Position numbers and translations under genes: made by a program
Notes under the pieces: model-generated
The model's database searches: none
What the model was told of the DNA's origin: nothing
The model's input: only the letters and a program-made list of their open reading frames with translations
Origin: Saprospiraceae bacterium
GTDB lineage: Bacteria > Bacteroidota > Bacteroidia > Chitinophagales > Saprospiraceae
Length of the DNA stretch: 64,000 nucleotides
Assembly: GCA_020627785.1 (NCBI GenBank)
Contig: JAHDGF010000010.1
Coordinates: 27,394-91,393 of the forward strand
Direction of reading: 5' to 3'
In this document: positions 18,829-52,287 of the stretch, piece by piece
Layout: every line of letters begins with the position of its first letter
Numbering within the stretch: the first letter of the stretch is position 1

Positions 18829-18850
18829 ATTCGTTTTAAGCGAAAGAACA

Positions 18851-18888
18851 AAAGACCTCTTGAGATTCATTATCCAAGAGGTCTTTTT
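18851..18888 (+). terminator. Strong rho-independent terminator
   Basis: Perfect 12-bp stem (aaagacctcttg / caagaggtcttt) with a 12-base loop, followed by a T-run on the plus strand. The A-run on the left arm means that it can also act for the convergent dacB-type operon on the minus strand, whose last stop is about 50 bases away. Confidence 0.9.
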
Positions 18889-18940
18889 TATTGATTCTTA
18901 ACTGCGATAAATTTCTAACTAAACCATTTGAGAATTCGGT

Positions 18941-31693: not shown

Positions 31694-31720
31694 AAATCCC
31701 GACACAATGTGCCGGGATTT
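31694..31720 (-). terminator. Terminator of the gldLMN transcript
   Basis: A 12-bp stem with one mismatch (aaatcccgacac / gtgccgggattt) around a 3-base loop. Read on the minus strand it is followed by a run of eight Ts, so it mainly ends the gldLMN transcript about 23 bases after the gldN stop. It may also act weakly for the enolase-superfamily gene on the plus strand. Confidence 0.88.
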
Positions 31721-31742: not shown

Positions 31743-32612
31743 TTAATAAGTCCAAAGATCGTGTTCAAAGTTGAAAAGCTCTGCTTTAATTTTCTCCGAT
31801 TCTAACAAACGGTCAACGCCAGCATTTTCATAGTTATCATAAAGATCAGAAATTCTTAAATCAAGAGAATTCGATCTTTTAAAGATATAGCTCGCAAAGA
31901 ATCTTTGCTCGAATAGATCATACCAAGACATTGGAGGTAAATCATTGAAGTCGTTAAATACTCTGTACTTCGCAAAATGTCTTCTTGCTTCTGGATAGTA
32001 AACGTGAAATAAAGGTAAAGTATACTTGAACTCCAATGTTTCATTGTCATACTCATCCTTCAATGGAGTGATGCCTAAGATTCTTGACTTAAGAACAGAA
32101 GCTTCCTCATCGAAGAACCATACTTCTTTAATTCTGTACTGCTTAATATCTTCCGCATTGATTTCACTCGCAACGATTTCAATTTTTTCCTCGTAAGTAT
32201 CATAATCAAATACAGTAGTAGTATCGATGCTATTAAGAGTTCCTTCTACTTCATCGATTGTCATCGGTTCAGTGAAGCCTTCATCTTTAAATACAACGAT
32301 ATCACCATTCTGTGCTAATTCTCTGATAACATCAAAGAAAGGCTTTTCAGGATACTTGAAAGGAAGATTCATCTTCTCTCTTGTATCAATGACTCTCCAT
32401 ATTCTTTTTTCCCACCCGATATCTGCTTCTCTAATTGGTTCGTAATCGATAATCATACTTTCTTCCGTAAGAGTTCTCTTTACGATTCCATCAATGTACG
32501 TATCTTCTAAAGGAATACTACCTTCAAATAGACCAGTTTCAGTTTCTTCTTGAGCTGATACCATTAAGGCAACAGAAGCAAGTAAGAACGAGAAAAGAAA
32601 TTTAAGTTTCAT
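31743..32612 (-). CDS. gldN: Type IX secretion / gliding motility protein GldN
   Basis: Periplasmic T9SS protein (PorN in Porphyromonas) that forms a ring with GldK below the outer membrane. The N-terminus is a signal peptide (FLFSFLLASVALMVSA). The body shows family features such as YIDGIVKRTLTEESMIIDYEPIRE, DIGWEKRIWRVIDTREKMN and YRIKEVWFFDEEASVLKSRILGI. Length, 289 residues, is slightly below that of Flavobacterium GldN. It is the last gene of gldLMN, 28 bases after gldM, and is closed by a terminator. Confidence 0.95.
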   Translation of the reverse strand: MKLKFLFSFLLASVALMVSAQEETETGLFEGSIPLEDTYIDGIVKRTLTEESMIIDYEPIREADIGWEKRIWRVIDTREKMNLPFKYPEKPFFDVIRELAQNGDIVVFKDEGFTEPMTIDEVEGTLNSIDTTTVFDYDTYEEKIEIVASEINAEDIKQYRIKEVWFFDEEASVLKSRILGITPLKDEYDNETLEFKYTLPLFHVYYPEARRHFAKYRVFNDFNDLPPMSWYDLFEQRFFASYIFKRSNSLDLRISDLYDNYENAGVDRLLESEKIKAELFNFEHDLWTY

Positions 32613-32640: not shown

Positions 32641-34248
32641 TTATCTGATTTTGAATACCATTCCTCCTAAATCTCTCGCAGCAGCATCACCAGGACACTT
32701 ACATTTGATGTCTTCAAAGAAATAAGTATCAGTTGCTTTCGCTTTCTTCATCATTGCTTGAGAGTCAGCAGTAAACTTACCACCTTTGTTGACTACAACT
32801 TGCGGATCCTGTCTTTTAGGTACTCTTACAAGTCTGAAACCAGCAATGTTACATTTTGCATCAAAGTCAAAACCTTTTAAGATAGGAAATACACCTGGCT
32901 GAATTTTAAACTCACCACTTGGCATTCCTCCACCTCTTGATTTTGAAAGCATTGGTACAGGATCAGGAATTCTTTTTACTCTAAAGTCTTTAGAAGCATT
33001 CATTCCTGGAGCTGATACATTTACTTTAGCAAATTCTCCTTTCTTAGTTGGAGTCTTCACTTTTACATTAAACGTACCATCTGCATTTTTATTGATGGAT
33101 CCTCCACCAGCACCACCCATGCTTACCTTTACTTCAGATGAAGATACACCGGCAGCTGAAACCTCAATTGGGTTATCAACACCTATGTAGAATACATTCA
33201 TCTTAGTAGGGGAGATGGCTACTGATCTTTCTCCAACCTCAAATGAGAATTCTTTTTTGAAGCTCTGAACTTCTCCTGTTACAGGGTTAGTCAAAGAAGC
33301 ACTCGCTGTATATCTTTTGACTCCAACACCAGAAGCTTTTGTTTCATAAACAGCAACTCCTTCCTTGTTTGTAGGAAGTGTTTTACCATTTACAGAAACA
33401 TTAATACCAGTATTTGAATCTGCAGAAGCTGCAGCACTTAAAAAGATTTCTGATTTGTAAGTTTCACCGTTAATGATGTAAGACTTTTCTGGAGCTGATA
33501 CAACCGTGTATTTATCAATAACTACATCAGTTGTCGTTCCTACTTTACCTGCTAGGTAATTTAAGAATGCACTTTCAGAAGATTTTACATCATTTTTAAA
33601 CTTAGAGAATATTGGAAGTACTGCTTGAACTGGCATGTGACTAAAGTTAAAGTGTTGCCAGCTTGGCTTTCCTTTTTTCTCCCAAGTTGTATCATCTATT
33701 TGAATAGAAAGACTTTTTGCGAATTCCTCAGTTTCGTTGATCGGTGTTTCAGGATCATCTTCAACAAGAGCCATCATCGCATTCTTGTACTCAATTAATT
33801 TATTTTTGAGTTCTTCTCCTTTACTTCCAACACCATCTCCAGCTGGTCCATCAACCAACCATCGTGTCGTAACATCGAAGTTCTTTTTTCCGATTAATTC
33901 ATCTGTTTGGGCTCCTGTTTCAGGATCAGGTACATAACCTCCTGATCTGGAGATCAATGAATCTGAAATACCCTGAAGGTAGTTAGCCATATCCGCAGAC
34001 AATTGTCTTCCTGGATCGATTAAATCGGCATATTTGGCCAATGAGGCTTTTTTCTTTGCACCATCTCTAATAGCAGCTGGTAAGGCGCTATTTCCTTGAT
34101 CCAATGCTTTGTTGGATTTTACCAAGCCTTTGTCAACCATTTTAAAGGCGTTGAAGATCTCTGCAGATACATTCAAGGCCAACAGCGCTGTTAATACCAA
34201 ATACATGATATTAATCATCAACTGCCTGGGTTCCTTAGGTATAGACAT
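32641..34248 (-). CDS. gldM: Type IX secretion / gliding motor protein GldM
   Basis: Inner-membrane protein with a long periplasmic arm that couples the GldL proton motor to the outer-membrane ring. The N-terminus PKEPRQLMINIMYLVLTALLALNVS is the single membrane helix and the most conserved part of the family. An alpha-helical domain (residues 35-220) and three beta domains follow, the last two rich in Gly-Gly and repeated KVKTPTKKGEF-type strands. Length 535 residues is normal. It lies 35 bases after gldL and 28 bases before gldN. Confidence 0.96.
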   Translation of the reverse strand: MSIPKEPRQLMINIMYLVLTALLALNVSAEIFNAFKMVDKGLVKSNKALDQGNSALPAAIRDGAKKKASLAKYADLIDPGRQLSADMANYLQGISDSLISRSGGYVPDPETGAQTDELIGKKNFDVTTRWLVDGPAGDGVGSKGEELKNKLIEYKNAMMALVEDDPETPINETEEFAKSLSIQIDDTTWEKKGKPSWQHFNFSHMPVQAVLPIFSKFKNDVKSSESAFLNYLAGKVGTTTDVVIDKYTVVSAPEKSYIINGETYKSEIFLSAAASADSNTGINVSVNGKTLPTNKEGVAVYETKASGVGVKRYTASASLTNPVTGEVQSFKKEFSFEVGERSVAISPTKMNVFYIGVDNPIEVSAAGVSSSEVKVSMGGAGGGSINKNADGTFNVKVKTPTKKGEFAKVNVSAPGMNASKDFRVKRIPDPVPMLSKSRGGGMPSGEFKIQPGVFPILKGFDFDAKCNIAGFRLVRVPKRQDPQVVVNKGGKFTADSQAMMKKAKATDTYFFEDIKCKCPGDAAARDLGGMVFKIR

Positions 34249-34283: not shown

Positions 34284-34868
34284 CTAAGAAGCAGGTCCTT
34301 TCATTGCACTTAGTACATTTCCATATACTGAGTTTAATCCAGAAAGGTTTCTGTTCAATGAAGCCAAGTTCTCTTGGTAGATTTTAGTATCCTCTACAGT
34401 CTCATTCAATGAAGCCATCGCATCATTCATTTTGCTGTAGAAATTACCCATTGCCTCAATCTGCTGTCCAGTCTGCTGAAAGTCAACTTCTTGAAGTGCT
34501 TTCAATGACCCTAAGCTCTTAGACATCATTTGTAATTCGTCTAACATTCCTCCTAATCTTCCTTCTACAACGTCCGGATCTAAACTTCTCGGAGCGCCTG
34601 AAGATTCTCCAGCTGTAAGTGGTGTAATCGCCGCACCATACTTATCTAGTCCTGGATATAATTTTTCCCAATAGTAATCTTTGTCTGGACCAATAAGTCC
34701 TAAAAATGCGAATAGAATTGCTTCAACAACTAGTCCAACCGTAATCATCATTCCACCCCAAGGGTAAGAGTTAATTTTTCCAAGTGCTCCCAACATTACC
34801 GCTGAGGCTCCAAGACCAATGATCAGGTTTTTAAAGTATTTGAAGCCTTTAGATTTTAACAAGCTCAT
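34284..34868 (-). CDS. gldL: Type IX secretion / gliding motor protein GldL
   Basis: Inner-membrane stator-like protein that uses the proton gradient to drive T9SS and gliding. Two membrane helices lie at the N-terminus (LIIGLGASAVMLGALGKI and GGMMITVGLVVEAILFAFLGL). Glu49 in the second helix is at the position of the essential glutamate of Flavobacterium GldL. The cytoplasmic tail (residues 100-190) is a predicted coiled coil with Gln/Met/Asn-rich heptads. The 194-residue length is close to the family's. A strong hairpin separates it from gldK upstream. Confidence 0.95.
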   Translation of the reverse strand: MSLLKSKGFKYFKNLIIGLGASAVMLGALGKINSYPWGGMMITVGLVVEAILFAFLGLIGPDKDYYWEKLYPGLDKYGAAITPLTAGESSGAPRSLDPDVVEGRLGGMLDELQMMSKSLGSLKALQEVDFQQTGQQIEAMGNFYSKMNDAMASLNETVEDTKIYQENLASLNRNLSGLNSVYGNVLSAMKGPAS

Positions 34869-34954
34869 TTTGTAGTTAATTTAAAAGTTATAAATGCTTA
34901 ATAGTAGTACGTGTAAATAAATCAGTACCGTCGGGATGTTGAATATTTCGTATA

Positions 34955-34992
34955 AAAATGAGAGGATAATACATAGCTTATCCTCTCATTTT
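34955..34992 (-). terminator. Perfect 15-bp terminator-like hairpin between gldK and gldL
   Basis: The arms aaaatgagaggataa and ttatcctctcatttt match over all 15 bp with an 8-base loop. Read on the minus strand it starts four bases after the gldK stop and ends in a short T-run (CATTTTTATA). It should end or reduce transcription from gldK into gldLMN, or protect the gldK 3' end. Confidence 0.85.
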
Positions 34993-34995
34993 CGA

Positions 34996-36237
34996 CTAAA
35001 AGTCGTTGATAGATCTTCCTAAGAAAGTAAGAGCACATCTAAATCCTACATAAGATTTAGTTGTATCCTGGTATTCCCAGTGTCTAGTACCAGTCTGCAA
35101 GAAGTAAGCTACATCTTTCCATGATCCACCTCTAATAACTTTTCTCTTAAAGTTAGCAGGATCATCTTCTTTTGCATCATACTTAAGATCTGGATTTAAA
35201 TCATGTACATGTGAATAGGCATTAGGATGGTATGCACTCTCTGTCCATTCAGCTACGTTTCCAGCCATGTTGTATAGCCCGTAGTCATTGGCAAAGTATG
35301 CATCCGCCTTCACAGTATATAGACCCCCATCTTCTGGGTAGTTTCCTCTTCCTGGTTTGAAATTAGCCAATAAACATCCTTTGGCATTTCTCACATAGTA
35401 ACCACCCCATGGATATGGAGCCATTTCTCTACCACCTCTGGCAGCATACTCCCACTCTGATTCTGTAGGTAGTCTAAATTCTTCACTATTTGGTTCTGCT
35501 TCTCCTCTGAATGAGTTCCAAAGCTGTGTTCTCCAATGAGTAAAAGCCTTTGCCTGCTTCCAGTTTACACCTACAACCGGGTAATCATCAAAAGATGGGT
35601 GCCAGAAATAGTTTCTTGTGTAAGGCTCATTGTATGAATAAGCAAAGTCTCTAATCCAAACAAGTGTATCTGGAAAGATTTCCACTGACTCTTCTTCTAT
35701 TAGGTTAGATCTAACGCTAGAAGTCTTATCATGTGCAGCTTTTTTCCAGTCTATCCACTGATATTTGTATTCGTATTGCTTGGTGTCTAATTCTCGCTTT
35801 CCATTGAGCATCATATCACCTTCATAATACATTTCATCCAAATCTTCAGATGAATAATCCAATTCGTATTCCCAGTCCAACTGTTCGTTGCCGAAGTCAT
35901 CTTCTTTGAAATCACCCATGATCGTGTGAGCTATAGAATCTCTAACCCAGTGCACAAACTGACGATATTCGTTGTTGGTAACCTCAGTATCGTCCATGTA
36001 GAACCCCTGAATTGAAATGGATTTTGGTTTCTGTGTGTACGTGTTGAATACATCTTGATCAGATTGACCAATGTGTAAAGTACCAGAAGGAACATATACC
36101 ATCCCATAAGGATTGATTCCGTTCCATGTAGGTCTGTCCATGACCCCTACTAATTGTCCTGATTCATCTCTGCCGCATGATGTAAGTAACAATACAACGA
36201 CTAAAAATGAAAATAGCGAAATGATATTTTTTCTCAT
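34996..36237 (-). CDS. gldK: Type IX secretion lipoprotein GldK
   Basis: Outer-membrane lipoprotein (PorK) that makes the T9SS ring with GldN. The ATG at 36237 gives a proper lipoprotein signal (RKNIISLFSFLVVVLLLTSC); a TTG seven codons upstream is less likely. The mature protein is a formylglycine-generating-enzyme-like (SUMF1) domain: VPSGTLHIGQSDQD, MDDTEVTNNEYRQFV, VNWKQAKAFTHW, RLPTESEWEYAARGG, GNVAEWTES and VIRGGSWKD. The Cys pair used by true formylglycine enzymes is not seen, as expected for a structural protein. A TATATTTG box lies 53 bases upstream. Confidence 0.95.
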   Translation of the reverse strand: MRKNIISLFSFLVVVLLLTSCGRDESGQLVGVMDRPTWNGINPYGMVYVPSGTLHIGQSDQDVFNTYTQKPKSISIQGFYMDDTEVTNNEYRQFVHWVRDSIAHTIMGDFKEDDFGNEQLDWEYELDYSSEDLDEMYYEGDMMLNGKRELDTKQYEYKYQWIDWKKAAHDKTSSVRSNLIEEESVEIFPDTLVWIRDFAYSYNEPYTRNYFWHPSFDDYPVVGVNWKQAKAFTHWRTQLWNSFRGEAEPNSEEFRLPTESEWEYAARGGREMAPYPWGGYYVRNAKGCLLANFKPGRGNYPEDGGLYTVKADAYFANDYGLYNMAGNVAEWTESAYHPNAYSHVHDLNPDLKYDAKEDDPANFKRKVIRGGSWKDVAYFLQTGTRHWEYQDTTKSYVGFRCALTFLGRSINDF

Positions 36238-36289
36238 CGTCCCAGATCGATTTTCCAAGTTAATTATTTGCCTAAAAACTAAATGTATG

Positions 36290-36297
36290 CAAATATA
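36290..36297 (-). promoter_or_regulatory. -7 box of the gldK promoter (TATATTTG on the minus strand)
   Basis: Perfect TAnnTTTG match upstream of gldK, giving a leader of about 47 bases before the ATG at 36237. It indicates that gldK starts its own transcript rather than relying on read-through from the PorP/SprF gene. Confidence 0.55.
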
Positions 36298-36416
36298 AAA
36301 TTATAATCCAATTATAGAACATATAATCTTATACTGCATAAGCCTAATTACCCAATATAAACGCAACATTCGCTCATCTATTTCACAAATAGAAATAAAT
36401 TCTAATGCTTAATTGC

Positions 36417-52257: not shown

Positions 52258-52287
52258 GTGAGTTTCCTACGTACATAAGAAACTCAC
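52258..52287 (-). terminator. Terminator of the serS-YugP transcript
   Basis: Perfect 9-bp stem (gtgagtttc / gaaactcac) with a 12-base loop, followed on the minus strand by TATTTTTTTATA. It lies 21 bases after the YugP-like stop and just before the frr promoter box. Confidence 0.85.

Follow-up and report, generated by a model that had tools for sequence, protein, structure and literature searches.

For the T9SS and gliding, gldKLMN is usually treated as one core operon. The gldK-N/porK-N genes are described as co-transcribed (PMC5790014), porPKLMN of Porphyromonas gingivalis as polycistronic at least in part (PMC4800418), and gldKLMN of F. columnare as a predicted operon (PMC5879114). The window, by which we mean the whole 64-kb stretch of Saprospiraceae DNA analyzed here, shares the gene order gldK-L-M-N with the operons of Flavobacterium and P. 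gingivalis, but differs from them in having a conserved hairpin between gldK and gldL, to which another clade adds a promoter-like box. What does a hairpin do at this position, inside a supposed single operon?

The gldK, gldL, gldM and gldN genes had been recognized from the sequence, and NCBIfam models agree with all four identities (Table 1); for gldK, the translation scanned was taken from the TTG at 36258. NCBIfam also places a PorP/SprF-family gene upstream of gldK. The canonical terminator after gldN indicates that such signals are in use in the gldKLMN gene set.

Table 1. Features of the gldKLMN locus, listed in the direction of transcription.
Feature	Position	Strand	Details
TATATTTG, putative -7 promoter box of gldK	36290..36297	minus	kept in 5/5 genus members read
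gldK leader TAGGCAAATAATTAACTTGGAAAATCGATCTGGGACG	36235..36271	minus	nearly invariant in 5/5 genus members
gldK, T9SS ring lipoprotein	34996..36234	minus	NCBIfam TIGR03525, 577.6 bits (cut-off 350); stop codon TAG at 34998-34996
Hairpin, perfect 15-bp stem with 8-nt loop	34955..34992	minus	core GAGGATAA/TTATCCTC, A/U-rich foot AAAA/TTTT; 5' arm AAAATGAGAGGATAA (34992-34978), loop (34977-34970), 3' arm TTATCCTCTCATTTT (34969-34955)
T-run TTTTT at the hairpin foot, then ATACG	34954..34958	minus	weak U-tract
AT-rich stretch, then CATCCC (34938-34933)	34933..34948	minus	just past the hairpin
GCATTTATAACTT	34885..34897	minus	identical in 4/4 genus gaps; overlaps TAACTTTT (34890-34883)
gldL, first gene past the hairpin	34284..34868	minus	NCBIfam TIGR03513, 101.9 bits (cut-off 68.3)
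gldM	32641..34248	minus	NCBIfam TIGR03517, 251.7 bits (cut-off 180)
gldN, GldK's ring partner	31743..32612	minus	NCBIfam TIGR03523, 168 bits (cut-off 85.9)
Canonical terminator after gldN	31694..31720	minus	12 pairs, 6 G-C, 3-nt loop, then TTTTT

A perfect stem closing an 8-base loop had been predicted after gldK, and it holds up: all 15 pairs are Watson-Crick, only 4 of them G-C, and on the minus strand the trinucleotide TCG (3 nt) separates the hairpin from the stop codon. The RNA folds at -21.2 kcal/mol (z -5.95), and none of 200 shuffles folded equally well. No other perfect stem of at least 12 bp with a loop of 3-8 nt occurs within the window, and in 20 dinucleotide-shuffled windows the longest stems of this kind measured 9-11 bp. 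A relaxed rule (11 or more pairs, one mismatch allowed, loop of at most 20 nt) identified five hairpins in the window, four of them intergenic. Further strong intergenic hairpins lie at 18848-18889 and 52258-52287, one between convergent gene ends and the other between two minus-strand genes. The combination AGGAT..ATCCT is near its chance frequency in the window (7 occurrences against 3.9 expected; as many in 6 of 100 shuffles).

The T-run expected beside the stem was only partly borne out. TTTTT does occur at the hairpin foot, but four of its five T's belong to the stem, base-paired to AAAA in the 5' arm, which leaves almost no free U-tract; the foot counts 6 T's of 8 only when its A/U pairs are opened. 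A consensus terminator scan that reported the site after gldN did not call the gldK hairpin. Rfam 15 gave no match at the hairpin, with three chance-level matches (E<=1) elsewhere in 31.0-38.5 kb, and no match at the gathering score in the loci of 20 relatives.

Comparing the gldK-gldL gap among relatives, a check put forward with the original prediction, strengthened the case for the hairpin. Six genomes of the genus were searched and five carried gldK (G003 gave only weak hits, the best at 1e-14); in all five, a hairpin folds a few nucleotides past the gldK stop. Our strict rule for a strong stem, namely 12 or more Watson-Crick pairs with no more than one mismatch and at least 3 G-C pairs, admitted four of the five and excluded G002. 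With the arms anchored by hand on GGAT, an anchoring that leans toward structure (MAFFT on whole hairpins had misaligned two rows), 98.2% of the cells in the 11-pair core were paired against 48.0-67.5% in slid-partner controls, 5 of the 11 pairs had changed on both sides, and the covariation score was 0.536 against 0.064-0.222 for slid versions. None of 500 shuffles equaled the observed paired percentage or covariation score; at least as many both-side changes were seen in 24 of them, and at least as many pair types in 352. The hairpin is maintained in the genus by compensating changes. In the four members measured its loop ranges from 8 to 20 nt (11 in G004, 14 in G005, 20 in G001), so that the stem has been kept and the loop has not. 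Most genus members have a U-rich foot, and the GGAT core recurs in the hairpins of G074, placed together with the genus in a starred 11-row tree group, and of the named MAG L245 (gldK 78% identical).

Across the family, gldK was found in 116 of 120 genomes, and a strong hairpin between -6 and +60 nt from the gldK stop in 62 of 125 loci, a set to which the order search also contributed members of the genus and the family. The hairpin is absent in several near genera, and G113, the nearest tree row outside the genus, has none after gldK; in other families of the order, clear long stems were seen in 2 of 20 gaps with a readable gldL start (L154 and L155). Setting aside the 7 loci without a readable gldL start left 118 family gaps, with a median length of 231 nt when a strong hairpin was present (n=60) and 132 nt when it was not (n=58). 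In a survey of 65 loci, window included (4 of 69 were left out because one of the four genes was missing), a strong hairpin within 60 nt past the stop followed gldK in 33, gldL in 2, gldM in 20 and gldN in 54. Such hairpins prefer gene ends and occur more often at the end of gldK than in the gldL-gldM gap, where they are rare; the 20 of 65 in the gldM-gldN gap are the counterpoint, and the window's own gldM-gldN gap has no strong hairpin.

The hairpins after gldK are distinguishable from those after gldN. In the 65-locus survey, 24 of 33 gldK hairpins versus 51 of 54 gldN hairpins had five or more T's among the 8 bases of the foot window; six or more were present in 30 of 67 versus 57 of 73 under a slightly looser hairpin rule. 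The median loop was 6 for gldK and 4 for gldN-end hairpins. GGATR in the 5' arm marked 29/67 gldK hairpins versus 3/73 at gldN ends (the looser rule again), and GGATR..YATCC marked 28/62 gldK hairpins versus 1/115 other strong hairpins at the same loci. Many gldK hairpins therefore have a sequence signature besides their shape. The last comparison also rules out the GGAT stem as a general terminator motif.

Because its U-tract is weaker than those at gldN ends, we read the hairpin as the element that forms the 3' end of the gldK mRNA, most likely as an incomplete intrinsic terminator, and we hold this view with moderate confidence. The hairpin probably gives gldK an RNA end of its own within genes that are commonly regarded as a single operon. 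A role at the gldK 3' end, through termination or protection, had been suggested originally and is the reading that best accommodates both the preference for gene ends and the conservation in relatives. Intrinsic terminators with an A/U-paired foot share with the gldK hairpin a stem right past a stop codon, a U-rich 3' foot facing an A-tract, and the gene-end location. Unlike intrinsic terminators, it has only 4 G-C pairs and nearly no free U-tract, its congeners have larger loops, its GGATR core is recurrent, and it lies within a supposed single operon. The weak U-tract also counts against our reading, as do the missing scan call, the loops of G004, G005 and G001, the hairpin-free G113 and half of the family loci, the hairpins that follow gldM within the gene set, and the want of a convincing gldL promoter in the window; loops of 11, 14 and 20 nt are unlike those of textbook terminators.

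In the mechanism that we envisage, the GAGGATAA/TTATCCTC stem with its A/U foot would form in the RNA as polymerase leaves gldK, a fraction of polymerases would halt there, and the hairpin would then shield the gldK 3' end. The gldLMN mRNA would arise from read-through and perhaps from a weak promoter directly past the hairpin. With only 3 nt between stop codon and stem, the 5' arm should be masked by a ribosome that completes gldK, and read-through could thus be favored while gldK is under translation. The ratio of GldK ring to GldLM motor that the hairpin had been proposed to set is a poor fit to the locus: gldN, which encodes the ring partner, lies downstream with gldLM, so the hairpin fails to part ring from motor. 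PorN/GldN is presented as the ring partner of PorK/GldK, with a 33-fold PorK-PorN ring, in PMC12421860.

The hairpin might instead be a non-terminating processing or stability element in one gldKLMN transcript, where a nuclease would cut nearby and the stem would protect the gldK portion, so that gldK and gldLMN would decay at different rates. We consider this somewhat unlikely. A weak U-tract and loops that are larger and more variable than at gldN ends would suit it, as would co-transcription of gldK-N/porK-N as an operon (so described in PMC5790014), and the excess of GGATR over gldN-end hairpins suggests more than a generic terminator. The gene-end position and the U-rich foot in most genus members nevertheless fit termination better, and so does the promoter-like box that lies downstream of the hairpin in another clade.

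That the inverted repeat acts as DNA, as a palindromic site for a regulator of gldL, is quite improbable. A core of GGATR...YATCC recurring in the hairpins of many genera is what such a site might offer, but the spacing of its half-sites varies with the loop (8 to 20 nt in the genus), and the flanking pairs change in a pair-preserving manner, as RNA pairing predicts.

TAnnTTTG is the Bacteroidota -7 consensus, and the TATATTTG box predicted upstream of gldK was found in place (Table 1). Above this box the sequence diverges among the five genus members in which the leader TAGGCAAATAATTAACTTGGAAAATCGATCTGGGACG is nearly invariant. For gldL, no convincing promoter was found in the window. The AT-rich stretch past the hairpin is a possible gldL promoter or start region; all 4 of the genus gaps readable through to gldL retain its CATCCC. 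The weak gldL promoter of the original prediction, TAACTTTT, fared less well: the bases right after the conserved GCATTTATAACTT differ among the four genus gaps (TT, AA, TA, AT), so the TTT is not kept and TAACTTTT is not preserved as a -7 box. A comparable TTAACTT lies in the gldK leader, past the TATATTTG box. A leader TTAACTAAC was seen in 24 of the 118 family gaps, 23-87 nt (median 29) before gldL and, in the examples carrying both, downstream of the ECF-type box described below. We therefore read the weak gldL box as leader; for GCATTTATAACTT/TAACTTTT, a leader element is likelier than a promoter.

In another clade, the gldK-gldL gap holds a pair of blocks, GTWACYTTT-N11-CRTTA, which we take to be ECF-promoter-like. 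It occurred in 32 of 118 family gaps, always with a spacer of 11 although 7-14 were permitted, and in 32 of the 60 gaps with a strong hairpin versus none of the 58 without; 50 shuffles gave a mean of 0.08 and at most 1. A named set of 79 loci, many from the same species as the family set, which it partly overlaps (L314 was left out of 80), contained 17 strong hairpins and 11 boxes, one of which (L256) had no strong hairpin. Searching whole genomes found exact copies in 13 of 18 chosen, with 0-4 per strand for a reversed-pattern control, so single hits can be chance; G000, G001, G004 and G005 of the window's genus had no exact copy.

Twenty box sites away from gldL were fetched. Four precede orthologous ECF sigma genes (L173, L178, L181 and L192) that are 56-62% identical to one another, a class assignment that comes from a general match of two of the proteins to NCBIfam and Pfam ECF/sigma-70 models. 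Two more precede GldN-like genes, two GldM-like genes (one the C-terminal part only) and two WG-repeat-like genes, as labeled from reading of translations and pairwise BLAST; the remaining ten had no recurring gene downstream, and of these one is located within an ORF. The box was also noted before genes in L176, L177, L188 and L190. In G095, seven box sites resemble one repeat: five identical copies and one variant of the box-like GTTACTTTTCTTTTATACATCGTTA, at six sites that were not fetched, are perhaps a repeated element. Upstream of 29 sigma genes (from the best 30 of 51, one having too little upstream sequence), the strict box was present in 10 and the strict or relaxed box in 23, against 0 and 3 in reversed controls. 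Judging from these placements, the box probably marks an ECF sigma gene set, apparently self-regulating, together with GldM/GldN-like genes.

This sigma factor has orthologs in 51 of the 120 family genomes (the weakest at E 1.3e-34, with the next hits at 1.7e-20 or weaker), and relatives at E below 1e-40 in 4 of 28 tested genomes of other families. At E<=1e-15, no ortholog was found in G000, G001, G002, G003, G004 or G005, the six genomes of the window's genus. Among the 113 genomes with both kinds of data, those with the ortholog had a strong hairpin in 45/51 cases, a strict box in 27/51 and a relaxed box in 36/51, versus 10/62, 2/62 and 4/62 of those without it. Even by the relaxed pattern, 15 of the 51 lack a box, and 6 lack a strong hairpin; a strict gldK-gldL box without the ortholog occurs in G112 (87% complete), G014 (91%) and G310 (99%).

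All 50 ECF-bearing tree rows fall in one 70-row group (support 83; 65 of its rows in a starred group), and the overall association of hairpin and ECF factor is therefore mostly that of one clade. As many independent events it did not stand: on the GldL+GldM tree, with values averaged, 9 independent pairs gave 3.1 in the same direction versus 1.0 in the opposite one (median p 0.625); the corresponding figures for the box were 3.5 versus 1.0 (median p 0.5). Inside the group, a looser hairpin rule counted 45 rows with both, 6 with the hairpin only, 5 with the ECF factor only and 10 with neither (Fisher 6.7e-5, a statistic that ignores kinship), which hints at joint loss. The window's genus lies outside the group. 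The hairpin may be older than the sigma system or may have spread apart from it. A second recurrent hairpin was observed in the gldM-gldN gap, with the form TAATAGTGCAC..CGTTA..GTGCACTTTTACA or GTTGGTTGTT..CGTTA..AACAACCAAC (L076, L081, L089, L091, L098; L109, L132, L134, L141); strong hairpins occupied this gap in 18 of 33 ECF genomes versus 2 of 31 others.

For about four in ten family genomes, we tentatively propose, as a near-even call, that a terminator hairpin with a GGATR core splits gldLMN from gldK and that gldLMN has its own promoter, served through the box GTWACYTTT-N11-CRTTA by a dedicated ECF sigma factor that would regulate itself and drive GldM/GldN-like genes as well. The window's genus keeps a related hairpin without that sigma factor. 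Extending this arrangement to the window's genome, where the hairpin would insulate gldK from a separate ECF-dependent gldLMN promoter, is very improbable: the high frequency of hairpins in genomes with the sigma ortholog and the confinement of the box to gaps with a hairpin speak for it, but the box is absent from this genome and three more of the genus, none of the six has the ortholog, and the tree places the genus outside the group holding every ECF-bearing row. At a completeness of 90.64%, only a diverged box/sigma pair in the missing part of the genome could rescue it. That the hairpin is a functionless chance palindrome, as its absence from several near genera might suggest, is hardly credible given chance stems of only 9-11 bp, the fold z-score and the compensating changes in the genus.

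The association of an ECF sigma factor with T9SS promoters has a precedent in P. gingivalis, where SigP of the PorXY-SigP system is so linked (PMC4800418, PMC8265659); in PMC4800418, SigP bound upstream of porP, not porK, and another motif is proposed. The system of the other clade differs in that its box precedes gldL and the sigma gene itself; in the six genomes searched of the window's genus, no ortholog of that clade's sigma factor was found. In a partial survey of the open-licence literature, neither a terminator between gldK and gldL nor an ECF promoter in front of gldL came to our notice. If our readings are correct, the ring lipoprotein gene would be controllable separately from the motor and ring-partner genes in Saprospiraceae, a family reported to be highly abundant in wastewater plants (PMC9304909). 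Besides PorXY-SigP, there would then be a second route by which an ECF factor is wired to T9SS and gliding genes, and T9SS regulation would become testable through a short DNA motif of fixed spacing and one sigma gene.
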